Shown here piece by piece: positions 1,350 to 25,750 of a DNA stretch of 64,000 nt (position 1 is the first letter of the stretch; each line of letters opens with the position of its first letter). Position numbers and translations under genes: made by a program. Origin of the DNA: Gammaproteobacteria bacterium (GTDB lineage: Bacteria > Pseudomonadota > Gammaproteobacteria > GCA-001735895); NCBI GenBank assembly GCA_030066085.1, contig JASJCI010000028.1, forward strand, positions 1 to 64,000. Reading direction: 5' to 3'. The notes beneath the pieces were generated by a model. The model was given only the letters and a program-made list of their open reading frames with translations. It was not told the DNA's origin and searched no databases.

Positions 1350-2792
1350 TCAGTCCTCGCCGGAACCGATATCGCCGAGGCTATGGCGGCGCAGCTTGGA
1401 ATACAGGCTTTGACGGCTCAGCCCGAGCAGTTCCGCCGCCGAGGCGCGATTATCGCCGGTCAGGTTCAGCGCGGCCTCGATGCAGAGCTTCTCGACCACA
1501 TCGGTCGACTGGCGCACCAGTGCCTTGAGCGGTACTCGTCCGACCTGCTGGGTAATCTGCGCAACCGAGCGGGGCAGGCGTCGTTCCGCCGGATCCTGCG
1601 CGCTGATCCGGCGCGCCACATCGCGCACGAAGAAGACGAAGCTGGTTTCCCCGTGGAGGCTATGCGCCGTGGCGGAAATCTCGACCTCGGTGGCCGCGCC
1701 GTGTTCGCCCATGAGAGTGGTCGAAAAAAGGCGAACCGATTCGCCGCGCCGCAGGTGGGTCAACAACACGTTGAGATCGACCGCGCTGCGCCCGAGCCAG
1801 CGATCCACCGACTGCCCCAGCGTCTGTTCCTCGTTGGCGAGTTCGGCCAGGTCGACGAAGCGCTGGTTGGCCGCAACGATCTGGCCCTGCTGGTCGGTGA
1901 CCAGGATCGCATCGGGCGCACTGCGCATGATATCGTCCATGCGAAAGGATGCCTGGCCGCTCGCGACCGGGGCTGCACCGCTGGCCTTGGCGGTCAGCCG
2001 GATCAGGATGCGCGAATCGGCATCCTGCTTGAGCAGATTGGTATCGATGGCAAAATCCTCGCCGCGCTCGGCGCTGCGAATTTCGCTGGCGAAAGCATGG
2101 CCGACCACGCGCGTCTCCGACAGCAGGGCGCGCAACGATTCCTTTTCACTGCCTTCGAACAGGCCGCTGAAAGACTTGCCGACCACCGCGGAATCCTTGG
2201 AACCAAGGATCGCATTGGCTGCATCGTTGGCCTCGAGCACCCGCTCGGTGCGATCGTCCACCACCAGTACCGCCTCGTCGACCATCTGGAACACGAGGCG
2301 ATAGCGGGTTTCCACCTGGCGCAGGCGCCAGTAATCGCGTTCCAGCGCGATTTGCGCATTGACCAGCTGCTGGCGCAGCGCCGCGAGCGCGCGCAGGTCG
2401 CGACCGATGGCAACCAGCAGGTCACCCTCGTCCGCACGCCGCGTGAAATAGCTGATCGGCAACTCGGAACCATCCGGTTGCTGGTGAATGACGTCCTGCC
2501 ACTTGCTGCTGCTGCCGTTGTTGCGCGCCTGGCTCAACAATTGTTCGACCTTGACCCGACTCTCGTCGGTGACCAGGTCGACCCAGGCGCGCCCGACGAG
2601 GCTGTCGTCCATATCGCTGCCAAGGTCGCCACCTGCGATCTCGACAGCGAGGATCCGGCCCTCGGAATCGATTTCGAGCGCAACGTCAGCGGCTTGCTGT
2701 AACAGAGTCAGGAGCGAGGATCTTTCGAGACCTGCAAACACACCGCTACTTTCCTTTAACCAATGAATCGATTCCCGCGTCCCGGCTTGCAT
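1350..2792 (-). CDS. ppsR: PpsR/CrtJ-type transcriptional regulator of photosynthesis genes
   Basis: 480 residues with an N-terminal Q-linker/PAS region, two further PAS domains (roughly residues 155-270 and 290-395, e.g. FQMVDEAVLVVDDRTERVLE and DAILVTDQQGQIVAANQRF) and a C-terminal Fis-type helix-turn-helix (RASAAELLGLSRQSLYSKLRR, about 448-468). PpsR is the aerobic repressor of bch, crt and puc genes. The cysteine in the DNA-binding region is present (C437, in EKLCIEAAL), but it is the only cysteine in the protein. It is transcribed towards bchG and away from bchF. A GGAGG sequence lies about 20 bases upstream of the ATG, too far for an ideal ribosome site, so the exact start is less certain. 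Confidence 0.93.
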   Translation of the reverse strand: MQAGTRESIHWLKESSGVFAGLERSSLLTLLQQAADVALEIDSEGRILAVEIAGGDLGSDMDDSLVGRAWVDLVTDESRVKVEQLLSQARNNGSSSKWQDVIHQQPDGSELPISYFTRRADEGDLLVAIGRDLRALAALRQQLVNAQIALERDYWRLRQVETRYRLVFQMVDEAVLVVDDRTERVLEANDAANAILGSKDSAVVGKSFSGLFEGSEKESLRALLSETRVVGHAFASEIRSAERGEDFAIDTNLLKQDADSRILIRLTAKASGAAPVASGQASFRMDDIMRSAPDAILVTDQQGQIVAANQRFVDLAELANEEQTLGQSVDRWLGRSAVDLNVLLTHLRRGESVRLFSTTLMGEHGAATEVEISATAHSLHGETSFVFFVRDVARRISAQDPAERRLPRSVAQITQQVGRVPLKALVRQSTDVVEKLCIEAALNLTGDNRASAAELLGLSRQSLYSKLRRHSLGDIGSGED

Positions 2793-2851
2793 TGTCGTTC
2801 GGGGCGAATCCGCCTCCCGTCATATAGAAACCGGCGCAAGTATATTTTAAG

Positions 2852-2921
2852 TGTCAACTTTAATCACTTGACGAATGTCAATCTTGTCGACCCGGGCAAC
2901 AAATGTCAATTTTATTTTAGC
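2852..2921. promoter_or_regulatory. Cluster of PpsR-like half sites between ppsR and bchF
   Basis: The AT-rich part of the 197-base ppsR-bchF gap (2793-2989) holds TGTCAA at 2852-2857, TTGACG at 2868-2873, TGTCAA at 2876-2881 and TGTCAATTTTATTTTAGC at 2904-2921, the last a one-arm near match to TGT-N12-ACA. With the exact site at 2930-2947 they could allow cooperative PpsR binding and autoregulation of ppsR. Assignment of individual half sites is inference. Confidence 0.4.
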
Positions 2922-2929
2922 TTTAAAAG

Positions 2930-4794
<1,865 letters not shown>

Positions 4795-4798
4795 AGCC

Positions 4799-6329
4799 AT
4801 GGAACTGACGATCTGGACATACGAAGGCCCGCCGCACGTAGGTGCGATGCGGGTGGCCGCCTCGCTCGAGGATTCTCACCTGCTCCTGCATGCGCCGCAG
4901 GGCGACACTTATGCCGACCTGCTGTTCACGATGATTGCGCGTAACGGCAAGCGCCCGCCGGTGACCTATACGACCTTCCAGGCGCGCGATCTCGGCGCCG
5001 ACACGGCGGCCATCGTGCTGCAAAGCGCACGCGAGGCGGCCGAACGTTTCAAGCCTGCGTTGATGCTGGTCGCGGAAAGCTGCACCGCCGAGCTGCTGCA
5101 GGACCAGCCCGGCACACTGGCGGCCGGCGCGGATCTCGAGGTGCCCGTCGTGCATGTCGAACTGGCGGCCTATTCGCGCAAGGAGAACTGGGGCGCCAGC
5201 GAAACCCTTTACCATCTCGTACGAGCCCTGCTGAATGGCCGGGAAGATCGCAGCGAACGCAAGCCTGCTGACCCGGCACGTCGTCCGCGGGTCAACCTGC
5301 TTGGCCCGACAGAACTCGGTTTTCGTTGCCGCGACGACGTTACCGAGATCACGCGCCTGCTGGATGCCGCCGGTGTCGACGTCAACCTGGCGGCACCCGC
5401 CGACGCGTCGGTCGCGGACCTGTTGCGCATTCCGGACGCCGATGCCAATGTCTGCCTCTATCCCGAGATAGCGCAGACGACCTGCGCCTGGCTCGAACGC
5501 AAATTTCGCCAGCCGACGGTGCGCACCGTGCCGATCGGCGTCGGCGCCACGCGGGACTTCCTCGCCGAGGTCGCCGAGGCAACCGGGATCGAGATCGATA
5601 TCGACAAGATCGAACGGAATTGCCGCCTGCCCTGGTACTCGCGCTCGGTCGATTCGACCTACCTGACCGGCAAGCGGGTTTTCATATTCGCCGATGCCAC
5701 GCACGCGCTGGCCGCGGCGCGCATCGCGCGCGAGGAACTGGGTTTCGAAGTCGTCGGCCTGGGTACCTATTCGCGCGAGCAGGCCAGGGGGGTGCGCGAG
5801 GCGGCGCGTCAGCATGGCCTCGAGCCATTGATTACCGACGATTACCTGGAGGTCGAGCGACGAATCGCGGAACTGCAGCCCGAACTCGTGCTCGGCACCC
5901 AGATGGAACGTCATATCGCCAAGAAACTGGGCATCGGTTGTGCCGTGATTTCGTCGCCGGCGCACGTGCAGGACTTCCCGGCGCGCTACTCGCCGCAAAT
6001 GGGTTACGAGGGCGCTAATGTCATTTTCGACAGCTGGGTTCATCCGCTGATGATGGGCCTCGAGGAACATCTACTCGGCATGTTCCGCGAAGATTTCGAA
6101 TTCAACGACGAGGCGATGCCGTCGCATCTCGCCGCCGTGCCCGGCGAAGGTTACGCGCGGTCCGGGCAGGATGATACGGGTACAGCTGCCGAGGGAACGC
6201 CGGCCTGGGCCCAGGACGCGGAACGCGAACTGAAGAAGATCCCGTTCTTCGTTCGCGGCAAGGCACGCCGCAACACCGAACTGTTCGCCAGCGAACGCGG
6301 TGTCGAAACCATTAGCGTGGAGACACTCT

Positions 6330-6358
<29 letters not shown>
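4799..6358 (+). CDS. bchB: Dark-operative protochlorophyllide reductase subunit BchB
   Basis: 519 residues, the second subunit of the NB component. D36 (in APQGDTYAD), the aspartate known as the unusual fourth ligand of the NB cluster, is present. D285 in [12 protein letters not shown] matches the aspartate described as the proton donor for ring D reduction. The C-terminal stretch [17 protein letters not shown] is the conserved BchB tail. Start ATG at 4799 begins [15 protein letters not shown], the normal family N-terminus. The last 29 bases overlap the start of bchH. Confidence 0.96.
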
Positions 6359-10944
<4,586 letters not shown>

Positions 10945-10945
<1 letters not shown>

Positions 10946-11646
10946 TGGCCACCCACAGTTACCGCCAGCGCCTCGCCGAAATCGAGCACTACTTCGACCG
11001 CACCGCGCTCGAAGCCTGGTCGCGACTGACTTCCAATTCACCGGTGGGGCGCATTCGCAGCACCGTGCGCGCAGGACGCGACGCGATGCGGGCACTGCTA
11101 CTGGAACGCCTTGGCGACGATCTCACGGGACAGCGAATTCTCGATGCGGGCTGCGGTACAGGCGCTCTCAGCATCGAGGCCGCGCGTCGCGGCGCCGAGG
11201 TGCTGGCGATAGATATCTCTCCGAGCCTGATCGACATTGCGCGCGAGCGTACGCCCCGTGATCTCGGTAACGGCAGCGTCGAGTTTCGCGTCGGCGATAT
11301 GTTAGGTGCCGACCTCGGCGACTTCGATCACGCGGTAGCGATGGATTCGCTGATTCACTACCAGACCGACGACGTGATCGCGGCGCTGTGCGAACTCGCG
11401 CCGCGCTGCCGGCGCTCGATCCAGTTTACCTTTGCCCCGCGCACGCCGGCGCTGGCCGTGATGCACTCGGTCGGACGCCTGTTTCCACGCGGCAACCGCG
11501 CGCCGTCGATCGTGCCGGTGGGCGAAAATCACCTGCGGCTCAGCCTCGAACGCGAGCCACGACTGCGCGACTGGCGCCACGGCCGCAGCCAGGCTATCCG
11601 CAGTGGTTTTTACCAGTCCCGGGCCTGCGAGATCCTGCGTCGATGA
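10945..11646 (+). CDS. bchM: Mg-protoporphyrin IX methyltransferase BchM
   Basis: 233 residues. A class I SAM-dependent methyltransferase that methylates the C13 propionate of Mg-protoporphyrin IX, the step after BchHID. The SAM-binding motif ILDAGCGTGALSIEAA is at about 65-80. ATG at 10945 shares one base with the bchL stop (TAATG); a longer upstream frame exists but lies inside bchL. It overlaps lhaA by 4 bases. Confidence 0.95.
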
Positions 11647-13076
11647 AACGCCTTTCCGACATGTTCGCGCTGGGCTGGAAATCGCTGGACCCGAAATATC
11701 TGCCATTTGCCGACGCGGCCACCGACAGTCTGCCAATGAGTCGCCTGCTGCGCCTGGCGCTGTTTCAGATTTCGGCGGGCATGGCGATCGTGCTGCTCAA
11801 CGGCACGCTGAACCGCGTCATGGTGCTGGAGATGAACGTGCCGACCTGGCTGGTGTCGCTAATGGTGTCACTGCCGCTGTTGTTCGCACCGTTTCGCGCG
11901 CTGATCGGACACCGCTCGGATCACCATCGTTCGCTGCTCGGCTGGCGACGGGTGCCTTACATCTGGCTGGGCACGATGCTGCAGTTCGGCGGGCTCGCGA
12001 TCATGCCGTTTGCACTGCTGGTGCTGTCGACGCCGGATGCCGGGCCTGCCTGGCTCGGTTACGCCGGCGCCGCGCTTGCGTTTTTGCTGGTCGGCGCCGG
12101 GCTGCATACCCATCAGACCGCCGGTCTCGCGCTTGCCACCGACCTGGCGCCGCCCGAGGTGCGCCACCGTGTGGTCGCGCTGTTGTTCGTCATGCTGCTG
12201 CTCGGCATGTTCGCCTGCTCGCTGGTGTTTTCGCTGTTGCTGCAGGACTTCAGTCCCAGGCGGCTGACAGAAGTGATCCAGGGCGCAGCCGTACTGACCA
12301 TGGTGCTGAACGTGCTGGCCCTGTGGAAACAGGAGTCTCGCAATCCCGCGCGAACTTCGCCTGCCAGGGCCGTGCCCGGTTTCGCTGAAACCTGGCGACG
12401 CTTTCGCGAAGATCGGCGCGTTCCGCGGCTGCTGATCGCGGTCGGTCTCGGCACCGCGGGTTTCAGCATGCAGGATATCCTGCTCGAGCCCTATGGCGGT
12501 GAAATACTGAAACTGTCGGTGGCGGCCACAACGGGTCTGACCGCGCTGTTTGCCGGCGGTATGCTGATCGCGTTCGCGGTTGCTTCGCGGGCGCTGGGTC
12601 GCGGCAAAGATCCGGCACGGCTGGCCGGTTTTGGCGCACTCGCCGGGACCTTCGCATTCGCCGCGGTCATTCTGTCCGGCACCTTCGAATCAGCCCTGCT
12701 GTTTCGTTGCGGCACGCTGACGATCGGATTTGGCGCTGGCCTGTTCAGTGTCGGCACCCTGACCTTCGCGATGACACTGGCCGAACGCAGCGACAGCGGC
12801 ATCGCCCTTGGCGCCTGGGGTGCGGTCAACGCGACCGCCGCCGGGCTCGCGATAGCACTCGGGGGCGCGCTGCGTGATGCCGTTACCGGCATGGCCGAGC
12901 GCGATTTACTGGGACCCGCGCTGACGGGACCCATTACTGGCTATGGCGTGGTCTATCACGTTGAAATCCTGTTGCTGTTCGCAACCCTGGTAGCGATCGG
13001 TCCGCTGACCGCCAGGTCGGGACCCGCCAAACAGCCACCAACGCGGGGCCTCGGCCTCGCCGATTTTCCGAACTGA
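11643..13076 (+). CDS. lhaA: Light-harvesting 1 assembly protein LhaA (PucC/BCD family)
   Basis: 477 residues with about 12 membrane segments. LhaA assists assembly of the LH1 antenna around the reaction centre and may hand over bacteriochlorophyll. The family signatures NGTLNRVMVLEMNVP (about 50-64) and the RALIGHRSD loop are present. The position between bchM and puhA is the standard one. Its ATG overlaps the bchM stop (ATGA). It is a paralogue of the truncated PucC-like gene at the left edge. Confidence 0.94.
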   Translation: MKRLSDMFALGWKSLDPKYLPFADAATDSLPMSRLLRLALFQISAGMAIVLLNGTLNRVMVLEMNVPTWLVSLMVSLPLLFAPFRALIGHRSDHHRSLLGWRRVPYIWLGTMLQFGGLAIMPFALLVLSTPDAGPAWLGYAGAALAFLLVGAGLHTHQTAGLALATDLAPPEVRHRVVALLFVMLLLGMFACSLVFSLLLQDFSPRRLTEVIQGAAVLTMVLNVLALWKQESRNPARTSPARAVPGFAETWRRFREDRRVPRLLIAVGLGTAGFSMQDILLEPYGGEILKLSVAATTGLTALFAGGMLIAFAVASRALGRGKDPARLAGFGALAGTFAFAAVILSGTFESALLFRCGTLTIGFGAGLFSVGTLTFAMTLAERSDSGIALGAWGAVNATAAGLAIALGGALRDAVTGMAERDLLGPALTGPITGYGVVYHVEILLLFATLVAIGPLTARSGPAKQPPTRGLGLADFPN

Positions 13077-13104
13077 CATGACCTGATTCACGGGAGCAAC
13101 GACT

Positions 13105-13881
13105 ATGGAAACTGGTGCCATCACCGATTACATCGACGTCGCGCAAATGGTGCTGTATGCATTCTGGATATTCTTTGCCGGCCTGATTTTTTACCTGCGG
13201 CGGGAAGACAAGCGCGAAGGTTACCCGCTCGAATCCGACCGCTCGGATTTCGTCCAGGTCGTCGGGTTTCCGGGATTGCCGGAACCGAAGAAATTTGTCC
13301 TGCCCCATGGCGGCGGTGTGCGCTATGCACCGCGCCAGGAAGCGGAAGAATCCTATCCGCTGGCGGCCGAACCGGCCGGCCACTTCCCCGGCGCGCCGCT
13401 GGAACCGACTGGCGACCCGCTGGTCGATGCGGTCGGTCCGGCCTCCTACGCGATGCGACCCAACGTGCCCGACCTGACGCACCACGGAACCCCGCGCATC
13501 GTACCAATGCGCGTTGCGACCGAGTTCAGCATCGAGCCGCGTGATCCCGATCCGCGCGGCAAACGGGTATACGGCGCGGACGGCAAGGCGGGCGCCACGG
13601 TGCGCGATATCTGGGTGGACCGCGGCGAACCGCAGATCCGTTATCTCGAAATGGAGGTCGACGCCAACGGCAAGATTGTTCTGCTGCCGATGAACTTCGT
13701 GCGCGTCAAAGGCGCCGGCCTGCGCATCAACGTGGTTTCGATCCGCTCCGACCAGTTCGCCAATGTGCCAACCCTGGCGAATCCCGACCAGATCACGCTG
13801 CGCGAGGAAGACAAGGTCTGCGCCTATTACGGCGGTGGTCATCTGTACGCCTTTCCGAAGCGTTCGGAGCCGTTGCTATGA
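13105..13881 (+). CDS. puhA: Photosynthetic reaction centre H subunit PuhA
   Basis: 258 residues. PuhA caps the L/M reaction-centre core and supports proton delivery to quinone QB. One N-terminal membrane helix (about 12-31: VAQMVLYAFWIFFAGLIFYL) is followed by the RREDKREGYPLE stop-transfer and a PRC-barrel-like cytoplasmic domain with DIWVDRGEPQIRYLE. A GGGAG ribosome site precedes the ATG. The 28-base gap after lhaA is the second largest in the operon and could hold extra expression control, but I see no clear promoter there. Confidence 0.97.
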   Translation: METGAITDYIDVAQMVLYAFWIFFAGLIFYLRREDKREGYPLESDRSDFVQVVGFPGLPEPKKFVLPHGGGVRYAPRQEAEESYPLAAEPAGHFPGAPLEPTGDPLVDAVGPASYAMRPNVPDLTHHGTPRIVPMRVATEFSIEPRDPDPRGKRVYGADGKAGATVRDIWVDRGEPQIRYLEMEVDANGKIVLLPMNFVRVKGAGLRINVVSIRSDQFANVPTLANPDQITLREEDKVCAYYGGGHLYAFPKRSEPLL

Positions 13882-14543
13882 ACGAACACGAATACGAACC
13901 GGTACGCGGCCTGCCCGACCTGCTGCCGGCCGGCGAACGCACGATCTGGCGCGGCGAGCCCGACTGGCGCAGCCTGGCGCGGCGGGTTTTCCATGTGCGC
14001 AAGATCGCGTTGTACTTCGGCCTGCTGATCGCCTTTTCGACGACCAGCAAGCTGGTTGGCGGCGAGTCGATCGCGGCAATCGTGTCCGCGGCCAGCTGGC
14101 AGCTGACGCTGGCCCTGAGCGCGCTCGGGATCCTGTACTTTCTAGCCTGGCTGTACGCGCGCACAACCGTCTACACACTGACCAGCGAACGCCTGGTGAT
14201 GCGTTTCGGCGTTGCCCTGACCATGGCGGTCAACATCCCCTGGTCGCGAATCACGCAGGCCGATCTGCTCGAGCACCGTGATGGCACCGGCGATATCGTT
14301 TTTACCGTCGACCCGGCGCGGCGCATGTCATACATCCTGCTGTGGCCGCTGATCAGGCCCTGGCGTTTCTCGCCGGTGATGCCGGCGATACGCAGCATCC
14401 GGGACGCCGCTACCGTCGCCGCGCAGTTGGGGGAAATCCTGCGCACGCGTTACGAGCCACCTGCCACTCAATTCCGCGAGGCACCATCAGCGGTCACACC
14501 GGGCATACTCGGCAGCGGGTCTACAGCTGCCACGGCACCCTGA
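13878..14543 (+). CDS. puhB: Photosynthetic complex assembly protein PuhB
   Basis: 221 residues. PuhB is a membrane protein needed for efficient reaction-centre assembly in purple bacteria. The sequence shows RGLPDLLPAGERTIWRGEPDW near the N-terminus, two clear membrane segments (about 48-70 and 73-96) and a bacterial PH-like stretch (TSERLVMRFGVALTMAVNIP). It overlaps puhA by four bases (ATGA) and is followed by puhC. Confidence 0.93.
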   Translation: MNEHEYEPVRGLPDLLPAGERTIWRGEPDWRSLARRVFHVRKIALYFGLLIAFSTTSKLVGGESIAAIVSAASWQLTLALSALGILYFLAWLYARTTVYTLTSERLVMRFGVALTMAVNIPWSRITQADLLEHRDGTGDIVFTVDPARRMSYILLWPLIRPWRFSPVMPAIRSIRDAATVAAQLGEILRTRYEPPATQFREAPSAVTPGILGSGSTAATAP

Positions 14544-14551
14544 GGCACCCG

Positions 14552-15040
14552 ATGAGCGGACATCACCATCACGATCGCACGCTGCCGCGCTGGCTGCTGC
14601 TCGCCGTAGCCGGCCTGATCGGCTTTGCGCTGCTCGGCGTCAGCGTGCACCGCTTGCAGGATTCACCGGCGGCCGTCGCAACAACGGGCAATGCTATTGC
14701 GGTGCGCGACCTTCGTTTCATCGATGTCGGCGGCGGCGAAGTCACGATTCACGATTGGCCGACAGGTCACGTGGTCGCCACCCTGGCGCCAGGTAGCGAA
14801 AACTTCATCCGGGGCGTGCTGCGAGGCCTGGCGCGCGAACGCCGTGCGCGCGGTATCGGTGACGAAACACCGTTTCGCATTGCCCGTTTCCGGGATGGCC
14901 GCGTTACGCTCGAAGACCTCGCAACCGGACGCACCCTGTTCCTCAATGCTTTCGGCGTCACCAACCTGGCCGCTTTCGACCACCTGATCGACGCAGGTCG
15001 ATCCGCGTCGATGCAACCCGACCCCGGCTCGGCCGGCTGA
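14552..15040 (+). CDS. puhC: Photosynthetic complex assembly protein PuhC
   Basis: 162 residues, with one N-terminal membrane anchor (about 14-32) and a soluble, presumably periplasmic domain. Family features are FIRGVLRGLARERRARGI, PFRIARFRDGRVTLEDLATGR and LNAFGVTNLAAFD. PuhC is required for optimal LH1-reaction centre assembly. ATG at 14552 (MSGHHHHDRT) was chosen; the longer frame overlaps puhB. The next gene is puhE, with no acsF between them. Confidence 0.92.
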   Translation: MSGHHHHDRTLPRWLLLAVAGLIGFALLGVSVHRLQDSPAAVATTGNAIAVRDLRFIDVGGGEVTIHDWPTGHVVATLAPGSENFIRGVLRGLARERRARGIGDETPFRIARFRDGRVTLEDLATGRTLFLNAFGVTNLAAFDHLIDAGRSASMQPDPGSAG

Positions 15041-15064
15041 GTCACCCGCCACAGGCCCCTACAC

Positions 15065-15847
15065 GTGTTCGAGTTTGTGCAACCCGTACTCCTCTCGCTG
15101 CTCGCCTGGTGGTTTCTGACCGGAATTCTCCTGTTTCTGAACAATCTGCCACCCAGCACGCACAAGTGGAGCCTGACCGGCGCAACGCTGCTGTTCGCCG
15201 TCGGCCTGATAACACTCGACGTCGTCGCCGAGGATGCCAGCCGCATCGGCGCGATCCTGGCCTTTTTGCAGGCGCTCGCGATCTGGTCCTGGCTGGAGCT
15301 GACCTACCTGACCGGGGCGCTGACCGGCGCCTCACGCGAACCCTGTCCGCCCGATGCCGAAGGCTGGAACCGGTTCAAACTGGCAGTCAAGACCAGCATT
15401 CATCACGAGGTCGCGGTCATCTTCGTCGGCATGCTGATCATTAGCTGGACCTGGGGCGCCCCGAACCCGTTTTGCGCCCTGACCTTCCTTATTCTGTGGC
15501 TGATGCGCTGGAGCGCCAAGCTGAACCTGTTTCTAGGCGTCGCCAGGATCAACGTCGAGTGGTTTCCGCCACACATGCGCTACCTTGCCACCTATATCCG
15601 TCATAGACGCATGAATTACCTGTTCCCGGTTTCGATTACGCTGGCGTCGCTGGTCGCGGCCTGGTGGATTCACACTGCCATAGTCACACCGGACGCGCAC
15701 GTCAGAACCGGTTACCTGCTCGTGGCAAGCATGTTATGCCTGGCGATTCTCGAACATGGATTCATGGTGCTCAGGATTCGCGACAGCGTGCTGTGGAACT
15801 GGGCCTTACGGGCAGCGGTACGATGGTCGGGAAACACGGTGAAATGA
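15065..15847 (+). CDS. puhE: Putative photosynthetic complex assembly protein PuhE (DUF3623)
   Basis: 260 residues and about seven hydrophobic segments. It matches the DUF3623/PuhE family found at the end of puh operons. Recognisable features are NNLPPSTHKWSLTGATLLFA, SIHHEVAVI and the RINVEWFPPHMRYLATY loop. The molecular role is unknown; genetic data from purple bacteria link it to photosystem assembly or pigment flux. The start is GTG at 15065, 24 bases after puhC. It is the last gene before a long AT-rich gap. Confidence 0.9.
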   Translation: MFEFVQPVLLSLLAWWFLTGILLFLNNLPPSTHKWSLTGATLLFAVGLITLDVVAEDASRIGAILAFLQALAIWSWLELTYLTGALTGASREPCPPDAEGWNRFKLAVKTSIHHEVAVIFVGMLIISWTWGAPNPFCALTFLILWLMRWSAKLNLFLGVARINVEWFPPHMRYLATYIRHRRMNYLFPVSITLASLVAAWWIHTAIVTPDAHVRTGYLLVASMLCLAILEHGFMVLRIRDSVLWNWALRAAVRWSGNTVK

Positions 15848-16179
15848 AGTCAAGCTACGTTTACAGTCAGTTGCACTAAAAAAGTGCAGAATTTATAAAG
15901 AATAATTTATAAAACCCTGTTTTTGTTAGATTTTTTTAAAAGTTAAGTATCCAGTGGGTTGAACCTGTCGACCCTTTTCGGGATACCGGTCAACCATAAG
16001 TCTATTTTAATTGACGTCTAGTAAAATTGACGATACTCTCCATCGGACACGCGAATCGTCTGAACAATAAAAAACTGGACCAAAGCGAGCGCAGCAGCCC
16101 GGGGCGCAATCGCCCCCGTGTTTAGGCCCCCTTGCTAGGTCACCCCGGCGTCGATTACGCAACCAATGGGGGAACCGAC
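15848..16179. other. AT-rich intergenic region between puhE and the hemN-like gene
   Basis: No gene is seen in these 332 bases. A dyad TGCACT-N5-AGTGCA (15872-15888) follows puhE but lacks a T-run, so it is a weak terminator candidate. Two copies of TTGACG (16011-16016 and 16027-16032) are 16 bases apart. A GC hairpin GGGGCG-CAAT-CGCCCC lies at 16101-16116. No exact TGT-N12-ACA site was found, so the downstream gene may have its own, non-PpsR control. Confidence 0.5.
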
Positions 16180-17505
16180 ATGAAAAAAACCAACGGGGAA
16201 AATCCCGCGCAACGCCCTCCCGGCAAGCGAACCATGACCTCTCGCATCGATCAGGAATCGGATCGCCTGAGCGCCACCGACTACATCGAGGCGCTCGCCG
16301 ACCAGGACGGCGGCAAGCCGGATTCGATCTCGCTGCAGGTGCACATCCCGTTTTGCCCCGTGCGCTGCCTGAACTGCGAATGCAACGTCACCGTAACCCA
16401 CGATTCAGCGGCCATCGACCGCTACCTCGATGCACTTCAGACCGAGGTAAATCTCGTGGTCGAGCGCATCGGCAGCAACCGGCACGTCAATCGGCTGCAT
16501 ATCGGCGGCGGTTCGCCGAACTATCTCAGCGATTCGCAACTGGTGCGCCTGGTCAGCATTATCGAACAGTCGTTCGGGCTCGATGCGAGCACTACCCTGT
16601 CGCTGGTGGCCAATGCACGCCATACCAGCTCTTCACAGCTGAGCCTGCTGCGCGGTCTTGGTTTCACCCGGATTAATTTCCCGACGCGTGACGTCGATCC
16701 CGAGGTACAACTCGCGATCGGCAGGGTGCAATCCTTCGACATGCTGCGCGAGGTGTTCGACAACGCGCGCCACGCCGGTTTCGAATCCGTCGGCACCGAC
16801 ATCAGTTATGGATTGCCGAAACAGAGCACGCAGACCATGCGTCGCTCGGTCAAGCTGCTGAAACTGCTGGCCCCGGATCAGATTTCCTGCAAGCCTTTCA
16901 CGCGCATGATCGATGCCTTTCCGCACCAGCTTGCAATTGCTGATTCGCAGGCGCCCTCGCTGGCGGACAAGCTGGCGCTGCTCAATGTCGTAGTCGAGGA
17001 GTTGACCAGCGACGACTACGCCTGGATCGGTCTCGATTGTTTTACCCGCCGCGAGGATCCGCTGCACCAGGCGCAACTGGAGCAAAAGTTACGCCGCAAC
17101 TGGCTGGGTTACACGCTGGACGAAACCAACAATGTCCTCGGATTCGGCACGCACTCGGTCAGCGAGGTCGGGTCGGTCTGCGTACAGAATCATTTCGGCG
17201 TCAGGAGCTGGCACGAATCGCTGGCGGCCAAGCGGTTACCGATTCGCAGCGGCATCCGCATGTCATCCGCCGACAAGCGCTACCGCCACGCACTGACCAA
17301 CCTGATGTGCAACCTCGAATCGGCCGATTACGAGGCCTTGCTGGAGCTCGAGGACGACAGCGGGCGGATCGACCATTACCACGACCGGGGACTCGTCGAA
17401 ATCGAGGGCGATCGCATCGCGATTACGCCGCAGGGCCGCATGCTGCTACCCCAGCTCTGGGGCGAAACCGTGCCCGGGCAATATCGCTGGCAGTACCCGG
17501 CCTGA
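16180..17505 (+). CDS. HemN-family radical SAM protein, divergent (oxygen-independent coproporphyrinogen III oxidase-like)
   Basis: 441 residues. The radical SAM motif C59-x3-C63-x2-C66 plus C68 (CPVRCLNCEC) matches the four-cysteine pattern of HemN rather than HemW. HIGGGSPNYL and ISYGLPKQ are also HemN-like. Compared with E. coli HemN from memory, two SAM-contacting residues differ: the IEVDPRE stretch reads LVANARH (Glu replaced by Val143) and SMGVQDF reads NFPTRDV (Gln replaced by Arg170). Activity on coproporphyrinogen is therefore not assured. ATG 16180 is preceded by GGGGGAA. The position beyond puhE suggests a role in anaerobic tetrapyrrole synthesis for photosynthesis. Confidence 0.8.
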   Translation: MKKTNGENPAQRPPGKRTMTSRIDQESDRLSATDYIEALADQDGGKPDSISLQVHIPFCPVRCLNCECNVTVTHDSAAIDRYLDALQTEVNLVVERIGSNRHVNRLHIGGGSPNYLSDSQLVRLVSIIEQSFGLDASTTLSLVANARHTSSSQLSLLRGLGFTRINFPTRDVDPEVQLAIGRVQSFDMLREVFDNARHAGFESVGTDISYGLPKQSTQTMRRSVKLLKLLAPDQISCKPFTRMIDAFPHQLAIADSQAPSLADKLALLNVVVEELTSDDYAWIGLDCFTRREDPLHQAQLEQKLRRNWLGYTLDETNNVLGFGTHSVSEVGSVCVQNHFGVRSWHESLAAKRLPIRSGIRMSSADKRYRHALTNLMCNLESADYEALLELEDDSGRIDHYHDRGLVEIEGDRIAITPQGRMLLPQLWGETVPGQYRWQYPA

Positions 17506-17695: not shown

Positions 17696-18895
17696 TTACT
17701 CGAGCGTGACGCGCGCGAACTTGCGTTTGCCGACCTGCGCGACAACCTCGGTGCCGCGCGCGAGACTGAGCCCCTTGTCGGACACCTTCTCACCGTCGAG
17801 ACGAACCGCGCCCTGCTGGATCATGCGGAAACTTTCCGAGGTGCTGGCGGTGAGCCCGGCCTGCTTGAGCAGCGCCGCGATTCCGATCGTATCCTCCTCC
17901 AGCCGCAGCCGTAGCTCCGGCATTTCATCCGGCATCGCACCTTTCGCAAAACGGTTGATAAAATCCTGCTTCGCCGCTTCGGCCGCGCTTGCGTCGTGGA
18001 AACGCGTGATGATCTCCTCGGCAAGCAGGAACTTGATATCACGCGGATTGGCGCCGCCCTCGACATCGCGACGAAAACGCTCGATCTCGGCCATCGGACG
18101 GAAGCTCAACAGTTCGAAGTAGCGCCACATCAGGTCGTCGCTGACCGACATCAGCTTGCCGAACATTTCGTTCGGCGGATCCTCGATGCCGATGTAGTTG
18201 TCGAGCGACTTCGACATCTTCTGCACCCCGTCGAGCCCCTCCAGGATCGGCATGGTGATGATGACCTGCGGCTCCATGCCCTCGGCTTTCATCAACTCGC
18301 GTCCGACCAGCAGGTTGAACTTCTGGTCGGTGCCACCGAGCTCGACGTCGGCCTGCATCTCCACCGAGTCCCAGCCCTGCACCAGCGGGTAGAGGAATTC
18401 GTGAATCGCGATGGGCTGGTTGTTGCGATAGCGCTTGCTGAAGTCGTCGCGCTCGAGCATGCGCGCCACGGTGTGACGGGAGGCGAGCCGGATCATGTCG
18501 GCCGAGGACTTCGATCCGTGCCAGCTGGAGTTGAAACAGATCTCGGTGGTCTCGGGGTCGAGGATCTTGAACACCTGTTCTCGGTAGGTCTGCGCGTTCT
18601 GCTCGATTTGCTCCGGCGTCAGCGGCGGGCGCGTCGCCGACTTGCCGCTCGGGTCACCGATCATGCCGGTGAAGTCACCGATCAGGAACATGACGTGATG
18701 GCCAAGTTCCTGGAACTGGCGCATCTTGTTGATCAACACCGTGTGTCCGAGGTGCAGATCCGGCGCGGTGGGATCGAAACCGGCCTTTATTTTCAAAGGC
18801 TTACCACGCGCTATCTTGGTCTGCAGTTCGGCCTCGAGCAGGATCTCGTCACAGCCACGCCTGAGTTCCTGCATTGCATCTTTTTCCGAAATCAT
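17696..18895 (-). CDS. tyrS: Tyrosyl-tRNA synthetase
   Basis: 399 residues, a class I aminoacyl-tRNA synthetase charging tRNA-Tyr. The HIGH-type motif appears as HLGHTV (about 48-53) in [12 protein letters not shown], and KMSKS is present in [13 protein letters not shown]-terminal S4-type RNA-binding domain ([20 protein letters not shown]) completes the TyrZ-like form. It is divergent from the M23 peptidase gene across a 73-base gap. The 190-base gap after the hemN-like gene (17506-17695), into which both genes read, holds no gene or clear terminator that I can see. Confidence 0.96.
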
Positions 18896-25207: not shown

Positions 25208-25327
25208 GCTATTGTTCGGTCCCGGCCGTCTGAATGGACGACGCATTATACATAGATGCTGATTCTAGCCTATCAGCAGGGATTATTTTGCCCGCCGACA
25301 CGACATTTCGAACGCAGGAATTCAAGC

Positions 25328-25750
25328 ATGCTCTGGATCAAGGCCTTTCACGTCATATTCATGGTCGCCTGGTTCGCCGGCCTGTTTTACCTGCCTCGCC
25401 TGTTCGTCAATCACGCCATGGCGGAAGAGCCCGCGGTGCGGGACCGGCTGGCGATCATGGAAGCCAAGCTGTACCGCTTCATCACGCCGTGGATGTTGCT
25501 GACACTCGGGTTCGGCTTCTGGCTGCTGTACGAGTATGCCTGGGCGGCCTACAGGCACATGGGCTGGCTGCACCTCAAGCTGCTGCTGGTCGCGGGACTG
25601 GTGGTGTATCACTTCTACTGCGGCAAGATCGTGCGTGATTTCGCCGCCGGCCGCTGCCAGCGTTCGCACGTCTGGTTCCGCTGGTTCAACGAGCTGCCGG
25701 TGCTGGTGCTGTTCAGCGCCGTAATCCTGGCCGTGGTCAAGCCATTCTAG
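25328..25750 (+). CDS. hemJ: Protoporphyrinogen IX oxidase HemJ
   Basis: 140 residues with four membrane helices. HemJ oxidises protoporphyrinogen IX to protoporphyrin IX, the common precursor of heme and bacteriochlorophyll. Typical features are MLWIKAFHVIFMVAWFAGLF with the conserved His8 and YLPRLFVNHA, and a later GWLHLKL. ATG at 25328 gives the family length; the upstream extension of 24 codons is probably not translated. It lies 9.5 kb from the photosynthesis cluster and could supply both heme and bacteriochlorophyll branches. Confidence 0.93.
   Translation: MLWIKAFHVIFMVAWFAGLFYLPRLFVNHAMAEEPAVRDRLAIMEAKLYRFITPWMLLTLGFGFWLLYEYAWAAYRHMGWLHLKLLLVAGLVVYHFYCGKIVRDFAAGRCQRSHVWFRWFNELPVLVLFSAVILAVVKPF

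Follow-up and report, generated by a model that had tools for sequence, protein, structure and literature searches.

Does a hemN-like gene inside a photosynthesis gene cluster (PGC) still encode an ordinary oxygen-independent coproporphyrinogen III oxidase? This question is raised by positions 16180..17505 (+) of a 64,000-nucleotide stretch of gammaproteobacterial DNA, referred to here as the window. The original prediction, made from the sequence, described a divergent HemN-like radical SAM protein at the edge of the cluster, with the four HemN cysteines kept and two SAM-contacting stretches changed.

The gene and its product

The locus holds an intact open reading frame of 441 amino acids, with an ATG at 16180, a stop codon ending at 17505 and no internal stops. 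Its codon usage resembles that of its neighbours (GC3 of 0.78 and 0.75-0.85, respectively), so nothing obvious marks it as a pseudogene. A frameshift or sequencing error was ruled out as the cause of the two odd stretches, since their flanks align in one frame and the changes run through the whole protein. In a phmmer search of the PDB, E. coli HemN (1olt) was the best match (E 1.9e-59, residues 49-424), yet the TIGR00538 hemN profile scored the protein at about 304 bits (303.9-304.7), under the curated NCBI equivalog cut-off for HemN of 324.95 bits; the protein is HemN-like and divergent, as first described. The profiles for HemW (TIGR00539, 95.7 bits against a cut-off of 205.4), HemZ (TIGR03994, 111.1 against 321.4) and ChuW/HutW (TIGR04107, 86.8 against 400) also fell below their thresholds.

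A structure model built from a four-row alignment reached a pLDDT of 70.6 and a pTM of 0.72; the single-sequence model reached a pLDDT of 35.4. The four-row model matched 1olt with a TM score of 0.75 (Z 41.5, 2.6 Å over 369 residues, 30% identity), the next chain having a Z of 15.9, and according to this model the HemN fold is kept. NocN (9p2u) was not among the structure matches listed, and no inference is drawn from this. The open reading frame, the profile and PDB sequence matches and the 1olt fold together define a divergent, PGC-linked HemN-like radical SAM gene, the final gene of its cluster.

The surrounding cluster and the genome

The cluster reads ppsR-bchFNBHLM-lhaA-puhABC-puhE-hemN, which confirms the position at its edge. 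The opposite end is occupied by a ppsR-type regulator (1350..2792, -) with 45% identity to Thiodictyon PpsR and PAS and Fis-type helix-turn-helix domains. The bchF, bchN, bchB, bchH, bchL, bchM and lhaA genes (2990..13076, +) were assigned by tblastn against annotated Thiodictyon genes (60-77%) and by the Pfam families BCHF, CobN-Mg_chel and PUCC. They are followed by puhA, puhB and puhC (13105..15040, +), supported by TIGR01150 for puhA (359.6 bits) and by tblastn for puhB and puhC (45% and 41% to Thiodictyon). Next upstream of hemN is puhE (15065..15847, +; TIGR03055, 255.4 bits, over cut-off), separated from it by an AT-rich gap of 332 nt (15848..16179, +) whose place is taken by bchE in Thiodictyon. 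Across 15848-16180, neither an FNR-like site, with two mismatches allowed, nor a PpsR-like TGT-N12-ACA was found, and the single weak promoter-like match lay on the opposite strand. Over the whole window, TGT-N12-ACA, which we take to be a site of the PpsR/CrtJ kind, occurs 13 times where 6.7 are expected; copies at 1246-1263 and 2930-2947 flank ppsR, one of them preceding bchF. Facing hemN at the PGC end is a tRNA synthetase-like open reading frame (17696..18895, -), whose translation resembles tyrS by eye. Additionally, a HemJ-type protoporphyrinogen oxidase is encoded 8 kb past the PGC (25256-25750, +), scoring 136.4 bits where the cut-off is 138.05.

The PGC is split over two contigs, the window part (1350-17505) and contig C70, each part lying near a contig end. 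BchE and BchJ are encoded together on C70, away from the window hemN. Within the family, puhA exceeded its cut-off in 1 of 41 genomes, that of the window itself, which suggests that the PGC, and phototrophy with it, was acquired from outside.

Four genes of this genome matched TIGR00538, namely those on C57 (585.8 bits) and C5 (403.6 bits), the window gene and a HemW-like gene (132.1 bits). The check for a canonical hemN elsewhere, proposed with the original prediction, therefore has a positive answer, as the C57 and C5 copies both exceed the cut-off. The C57 protein clusters with the HemNs of its genus. The C5 copy (L002, G000:C5:8162-9514) is another HemN paralogue, placed on a very long branch, with a SAM-site residue set (defined below) intact apart from Q311M; similar sequences, at 26-29% identity, recur across many genomes of the genus. 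An own-lineage HemN gone astray was rejected as the source of the window gene, given that the HemN of the genus is the C57 copy and that the other 30 listed same-genus genomes lack a close copy (best 212.6 bits).

Relatives in other photosynthesis gene clusters

Two relatives were identified. A plasmid collection search returned a hemN (41% identity to the window protein) from the PGC on plasmid pTs485 of Candidatus Thiodictyon syntrophicum, where the order is puhA-puhB-puhC-puhE-bchE-hemN-bchJ. A family-wide genome search returned a gene of genome G575, in the family of G142 (34% identity), directly preceding bchC in the order hemN-bchC-bchX-bchZ-pufM-pufC; this genome holds an ordinary HemN as well. 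Under TIGR00538 the Thiodictyon protein passes the cut-off (367.1 bits) and the G575 protein does not (289.4 bits). All three genes thus lie inside PGCs.

In a tree of 87 rows, the three proteins formed one clade (bootstrap 100, SH-aLRT 99), which was present in all 200 bootstrap trees and lay outside the 73 rows of ordinary HemN, among which one gene is present twice. The window protein therefore falls outside normal HemN, contrary to the placement named beforehand as speaking against the original prediction, and both sequence and tree put it nearer HemN than HemW. When each member was left out in turn (trees of 34 of the 87 rows), the remaining two always paired (SH-aLRT 91, 99 and 98), and 11 residues common to the three are found in no more than 5% of the rows of ordinary HemN. 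The evidence for the clade is nevertheless limited to three members, all on long branches and 34-41% identical to the window protein.

Searches for further members returned little. A scan of genome contigs gave one distant match; the class sample gave a match in 1 of 369 genomes and the order in 1 of 41, in both cases the window's own genome. In the phylum sample 174 of 398 genomes matched, and the 29 new loci inspected by residue were all ordinary HemN. In the family of G142, 7 of 299 genomes matched at 1e-71, the G575 gene being the one clade member by residues and tree; within its genus, 1 of 3 genomes holds a member. In the family of G292, 7 of 48 genomes matched by score (318-351 bits). 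With a leave-one-out profile, the window protein scored 380.4 bits and the best ordinary HemN 372.1, a margin so small that members this divergent may escape score-based searches. Six further phototrophs in the sample whose puhA exceeded the cut-off showed no HemN in the puh region examined, which means that PGCs do not generally carry the gene.

Residues of the cofactor sites and the trip-wire

The cluster motif CPVRCLNCEC (16354..16383, +) places Cys59, Cys63, Cys66 and Cys68 opposite C62, C66, C69 and C71 of E. coli HemN; the CxxxCxxCxC pattern is complete, and the claim that all four cysteines are kept holds. In LVANARH (window residues 142-148; 16603..16623, +), opposite E. coli IEVDPRE, the changes are E145V, D147N and P148A. 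In NFPTRDV (residues 166-172; 16675..16695, +), opposite SMGVQDF, they are S168N, G170P and Q172R. Both named stretches are indeed altered and lie on SAM-contact segments, because the changed residues include E145 and Q172, which we take to be SAM contacts. The differences extend beyond those first noted to Y56Q, T114S, I211S, A243T, F310W, Q311L and the loss of the N-terminal motif. Gln53 (codon 16336..16338, +) stands at the position of E. coli Tyr56, and Trp308-Leu309 (17101..17106, +) replace F310-Q311, F310 being absent from all three PGC relatives. In GGGSPN (16504..16521, +) the glycine motif is retained, with T114S.

In E. coli HemN, E145, F310 and Q311 presumably belong to the second-SAM side, and GGG (111-113), Q172, R184 and D209 presumably form the site of the cluster-bound SAM. 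On this assignment, the second-SAM-side set Tyr56/E145/F310/Q311 has become Q/V/W/L in the window protein, all four being changed. In the cluster-bound set, GGG, R184 and D209 are present and Q172 is Arg. According to PMC13266988, HemN depends on two SAM molecules together; Tyr56, described as "crucial for catalysis", stacks against the adenine of the second (SAM-II), and the trip-wire segment is said to serve substrate association or release.

These changes are rare. Among the 87 aligned HemN/HemW-type rows, E145 is altered in two (Val in the window protein, Gln in L028), Tyr56 in two (the window and G575 proteins) and Q172 in three (those two and L130). Divergence as such was controlled for with the C5 paralogue (L002) and L074, which are about as divergent as the window protein (their identity to the HemN consensus is 41% and 44%, that of the window protein 36%). 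From a SAM set of 13 residues, the window protein has lost 7, the G575 protein 6 and the Thiodictyon protein 2, whereas the controls have lost 1 (L002) and 0 (L074). Over the 13 positions of the trip-wire segment 20-32 (motif GPRYTSYPTA), the window, Thiodictyon and G575 proteins match at 3, 1 and 2, and the divergent controls at 9 and 10. Across 100 positions each shared by 95% or more of the 73 canonical rows, the departures number 40, 29 and 35 in the same three proteins, compared with 18 in L002, 11 in L074 and 4 in the C57 copy (L001).

Residues lost from all three clade members comprise G20, P21, R22, Y23, S25, A29 and F32 in the trip-wire, and N165, M287, H289, A291, F310, Y346, F400, F440 and D441 elsewhere. 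The M, H and A of GMDHFA (M287/H289/A291) and the F310-Q311 pair are gone from all three; together with the trip-wire, they are nearly all retained by the equally divergent HemN controls. Conversely, 44 of the 100 positions are kept in all three members, including the four cysteines, GGG and R184. The window copy shows the most losses, Tyr56, E145 and Q172 among them; the Thiodictyon protein retains these three and D209. The G575 losses are partly different (Y56D, Q172A, D209E), from which it follows that the SAM site was altered more than once. Nevertheless, residue losses alone are no proof of lost activity, because same-genus HemNs on otherwise ordinary branches vary at the same sites (F310L/Q311E in L027, Q311R in L030, E145Q and Q311R in L028).

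Function of the PGC-linked protein

Together, these comparisons suggest that the window protein probably has a different job from that of ordinary HemN. The evidence is compatible with both options of the original prediction, an altered coproporphyrinogen oxidase or a new enzyme acting on tetrapyrroles. The loss of Tyr56, E145, F310/Q311 and the trip-wire, however, speaks against a coproporphyrinogen oxidase of the ordinary two-SAM kind. Our leading, tentative reading, which falls somewhat short of an even chance, is a HemN paralogue that travels with PGCs, no longer carries out the two-SAM reaction on coproporphyrinogen and probably takes a tetrapyrrole from the bacteriochlorophyll branch as its substrate or ligand, using at most one SAM. 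The [4Fe-4S] cluster would still be bound and the first SAM site partly kept, whereas the second SAM, missing Tyr56, E145 and F310-Q311, would probably not be held. Because the ordinary enzyme works only with both SAM molecules together, its reaction would then be lost and no protoporphyrinogen would be made by the ordinary HemN route. A bacteriochlorophyll-branch tetrapyrrole is the likely ligand or substrate of the HemN pocket because the gene sits in the PGCs of distant hosts. The protein might act with one SAM, or as a non-catalytic carrier or partner of neighbouring enzymes of pigment synthesis, for example BchE and BchJ, whose genes adjoin hemN in Thiodictyon, although their place on C70 in the window's genome counts against this reading; ordinary heme supply would be left to the canonical HemN on C57. 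The assumption in the original prediction that the protein is necessarily active as a radical SAM enzyme is unsupported as it stands, because a protein without catalysis, or a copy in decay, would also fit.

An extension of this paralogue reading, which we consider doubtful, is that PGC-linked HemNs form a separate HemN-derived family that dispenses with the second SAM, acts on or carries a tetrapyrrole of anaerobic bacteriochlorophyll synthesis and is misannotated as coproporphyrinogen oxidase in purple bacteria; a step between protoporphyrin and BchE/BchJ, or oxygen-independent protoporphyrinogen oxidation, would be example roles. The Thiodictyon member may be a working HemN, because it keeps Tyr56, E145, Q172 and D209 and passes the cut-off.

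The window protein itself could be a working oxygen-independent coproporphyrinogen III oxidase that supplies bacteriochlorophyll synthesis at low oxygen, its altered SAM site being functional and the changes tolerated or compensated. This possibility, which we regard as rather unlikely, is compatible with the four cysteines, GGG, R184 and D209, and with the Thiodictyon copy, which exceeds the cut-off, is annotated as hemN and adjoins bchE. The Thiocapsa bogorovii hemN likewise lies by bchE (PMC10892978, cluster description), HemN is the step hit in Rubrivivax when photosynthetic growth excretes coproporphyrin (PMC7283390, in extract), and a Kovacikia plasmid carries an ordinary HemN and BchE in one open frame, so that HemN-BchE coupling recurs. 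However, Tyr56, E145, Q172, F310 and Q311 are missing all together from the window protein, the clade lacks the trip-wire motif and H289, and the genome has two other HemNs.

Those other HemNs bear equally on a redundant, decaying copy, left without a job, and drifting, since the cluster arrived in a host that already had a HemN. The window copy has the most extreme losses, its bchE no longer adjoins it, and the restriction of puhA to one of 41 family genomes means that the cluster may be a newcomer. Decay nonetheless appears improbable, given 441 open codons of normal usage and the HemN-conserved positions, all cysteines included, that persist in three members. Furthermore, the G575 protein has similar yet different SAM-site losses, which suggests a clade trend and not a single accident.

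A HemW-like carrier handing heme or a chlorophyll precursor to photosynthetic proteins (the reaction centre cytochrome, or the assembly factors puhB/C/E and lhaA) is very improbable: HemW rows (L004, L075-L080) also lack the trip-wire and F310/Q311, HemW is a heme chaperone (cited in PMC10964404), assembly genes adjoin the window gene and the G575 copy lies near pufM-pufC, but the window protein has the fourth cysteine that HemW lacks, matches HemN far better than HemW (304.7 against 95.7 bits) and is nearer HemN in the tree, and HemW itself retains Tyr56 and E145.

If the paralogue reading is true, a gene listed as plain hemN in purple-bacterial PGCs does not encode the ordinary enzyme, the anaerobic synthesis of bacteriochlorophyll would involve an unassigned tetrapyrrole step or carrier, and nature has provided a test of the roles of the second SAM and the trip-wire of HemN. 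For annotation, the four cysteines alone are insufficient to call a HemN.

Comparison with known systems

The position of hemN by puh or bchE genes in PGCs is already known; no published account of the divergence of the PGC hemN, or of such residue losses, was found in the literature searched. Printed cluster maps give the order puhA...bchE-hemN-bchJ for Thiocapsa bogorovii, whose LT988_08945 (453 aa) occupies the same place after the puh genes, compared by table position only (PMC10892978, table). NOR5/OM60 clusters are likewise printed with hemN downstream of the puh genes, after puhABC-puhE, a comparison by gene order only (PMC3176799, in part). One of two hemN genes of Chloroflexus has been suggested as a possible oxygen-independent protoporphyrinogen oxidase (PMC3150298, genome description), and BchJ, the neighbour of hemN in Thiodictyon, is a suspected chaperone (PMC7242693, in excerpt). 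As a separate observation, Kovacikia minuta plasmid pA (L091:2944-6396, +) holds one 1150-aa open frame, a possible HemN-BchE fusion, comprising an ordinary HemN (residues 9-463; TIGR00538, 723.1 bits), then BchE (475-968; TIGR02026, 774.9 bits) and a tail that resembles a response-regulator receiver by eye.

The window protein shares with HemN (TIGR00538; 1olt) the whole fold, CxxxCxxCxC, GGG, R184 and D209, but differs in its sub-threshold score and in the loss of Tyr56, E145, Q172, F310, Q311 and the trip-wire. The Thiodictyon pTs485 hemN is a clade-mate in the same place after the puh genes, but keeps Tyr56, E145 and Q172 and has bchE between puhE and hemN. The heme chaperone HemW shares the radical SAM core and the absence of the trip-wire and F310/Q311, but has Phe instead of the fourth cysteine in its rows and a weaker profile match. 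Class C radical SAM methylases (NocN, 9p2u) and ChuW/HutW share the HemN-type radical SAM core, but bind two SAM molecules and keep the Tyr (PMC13266988), where the window protein has Gln.
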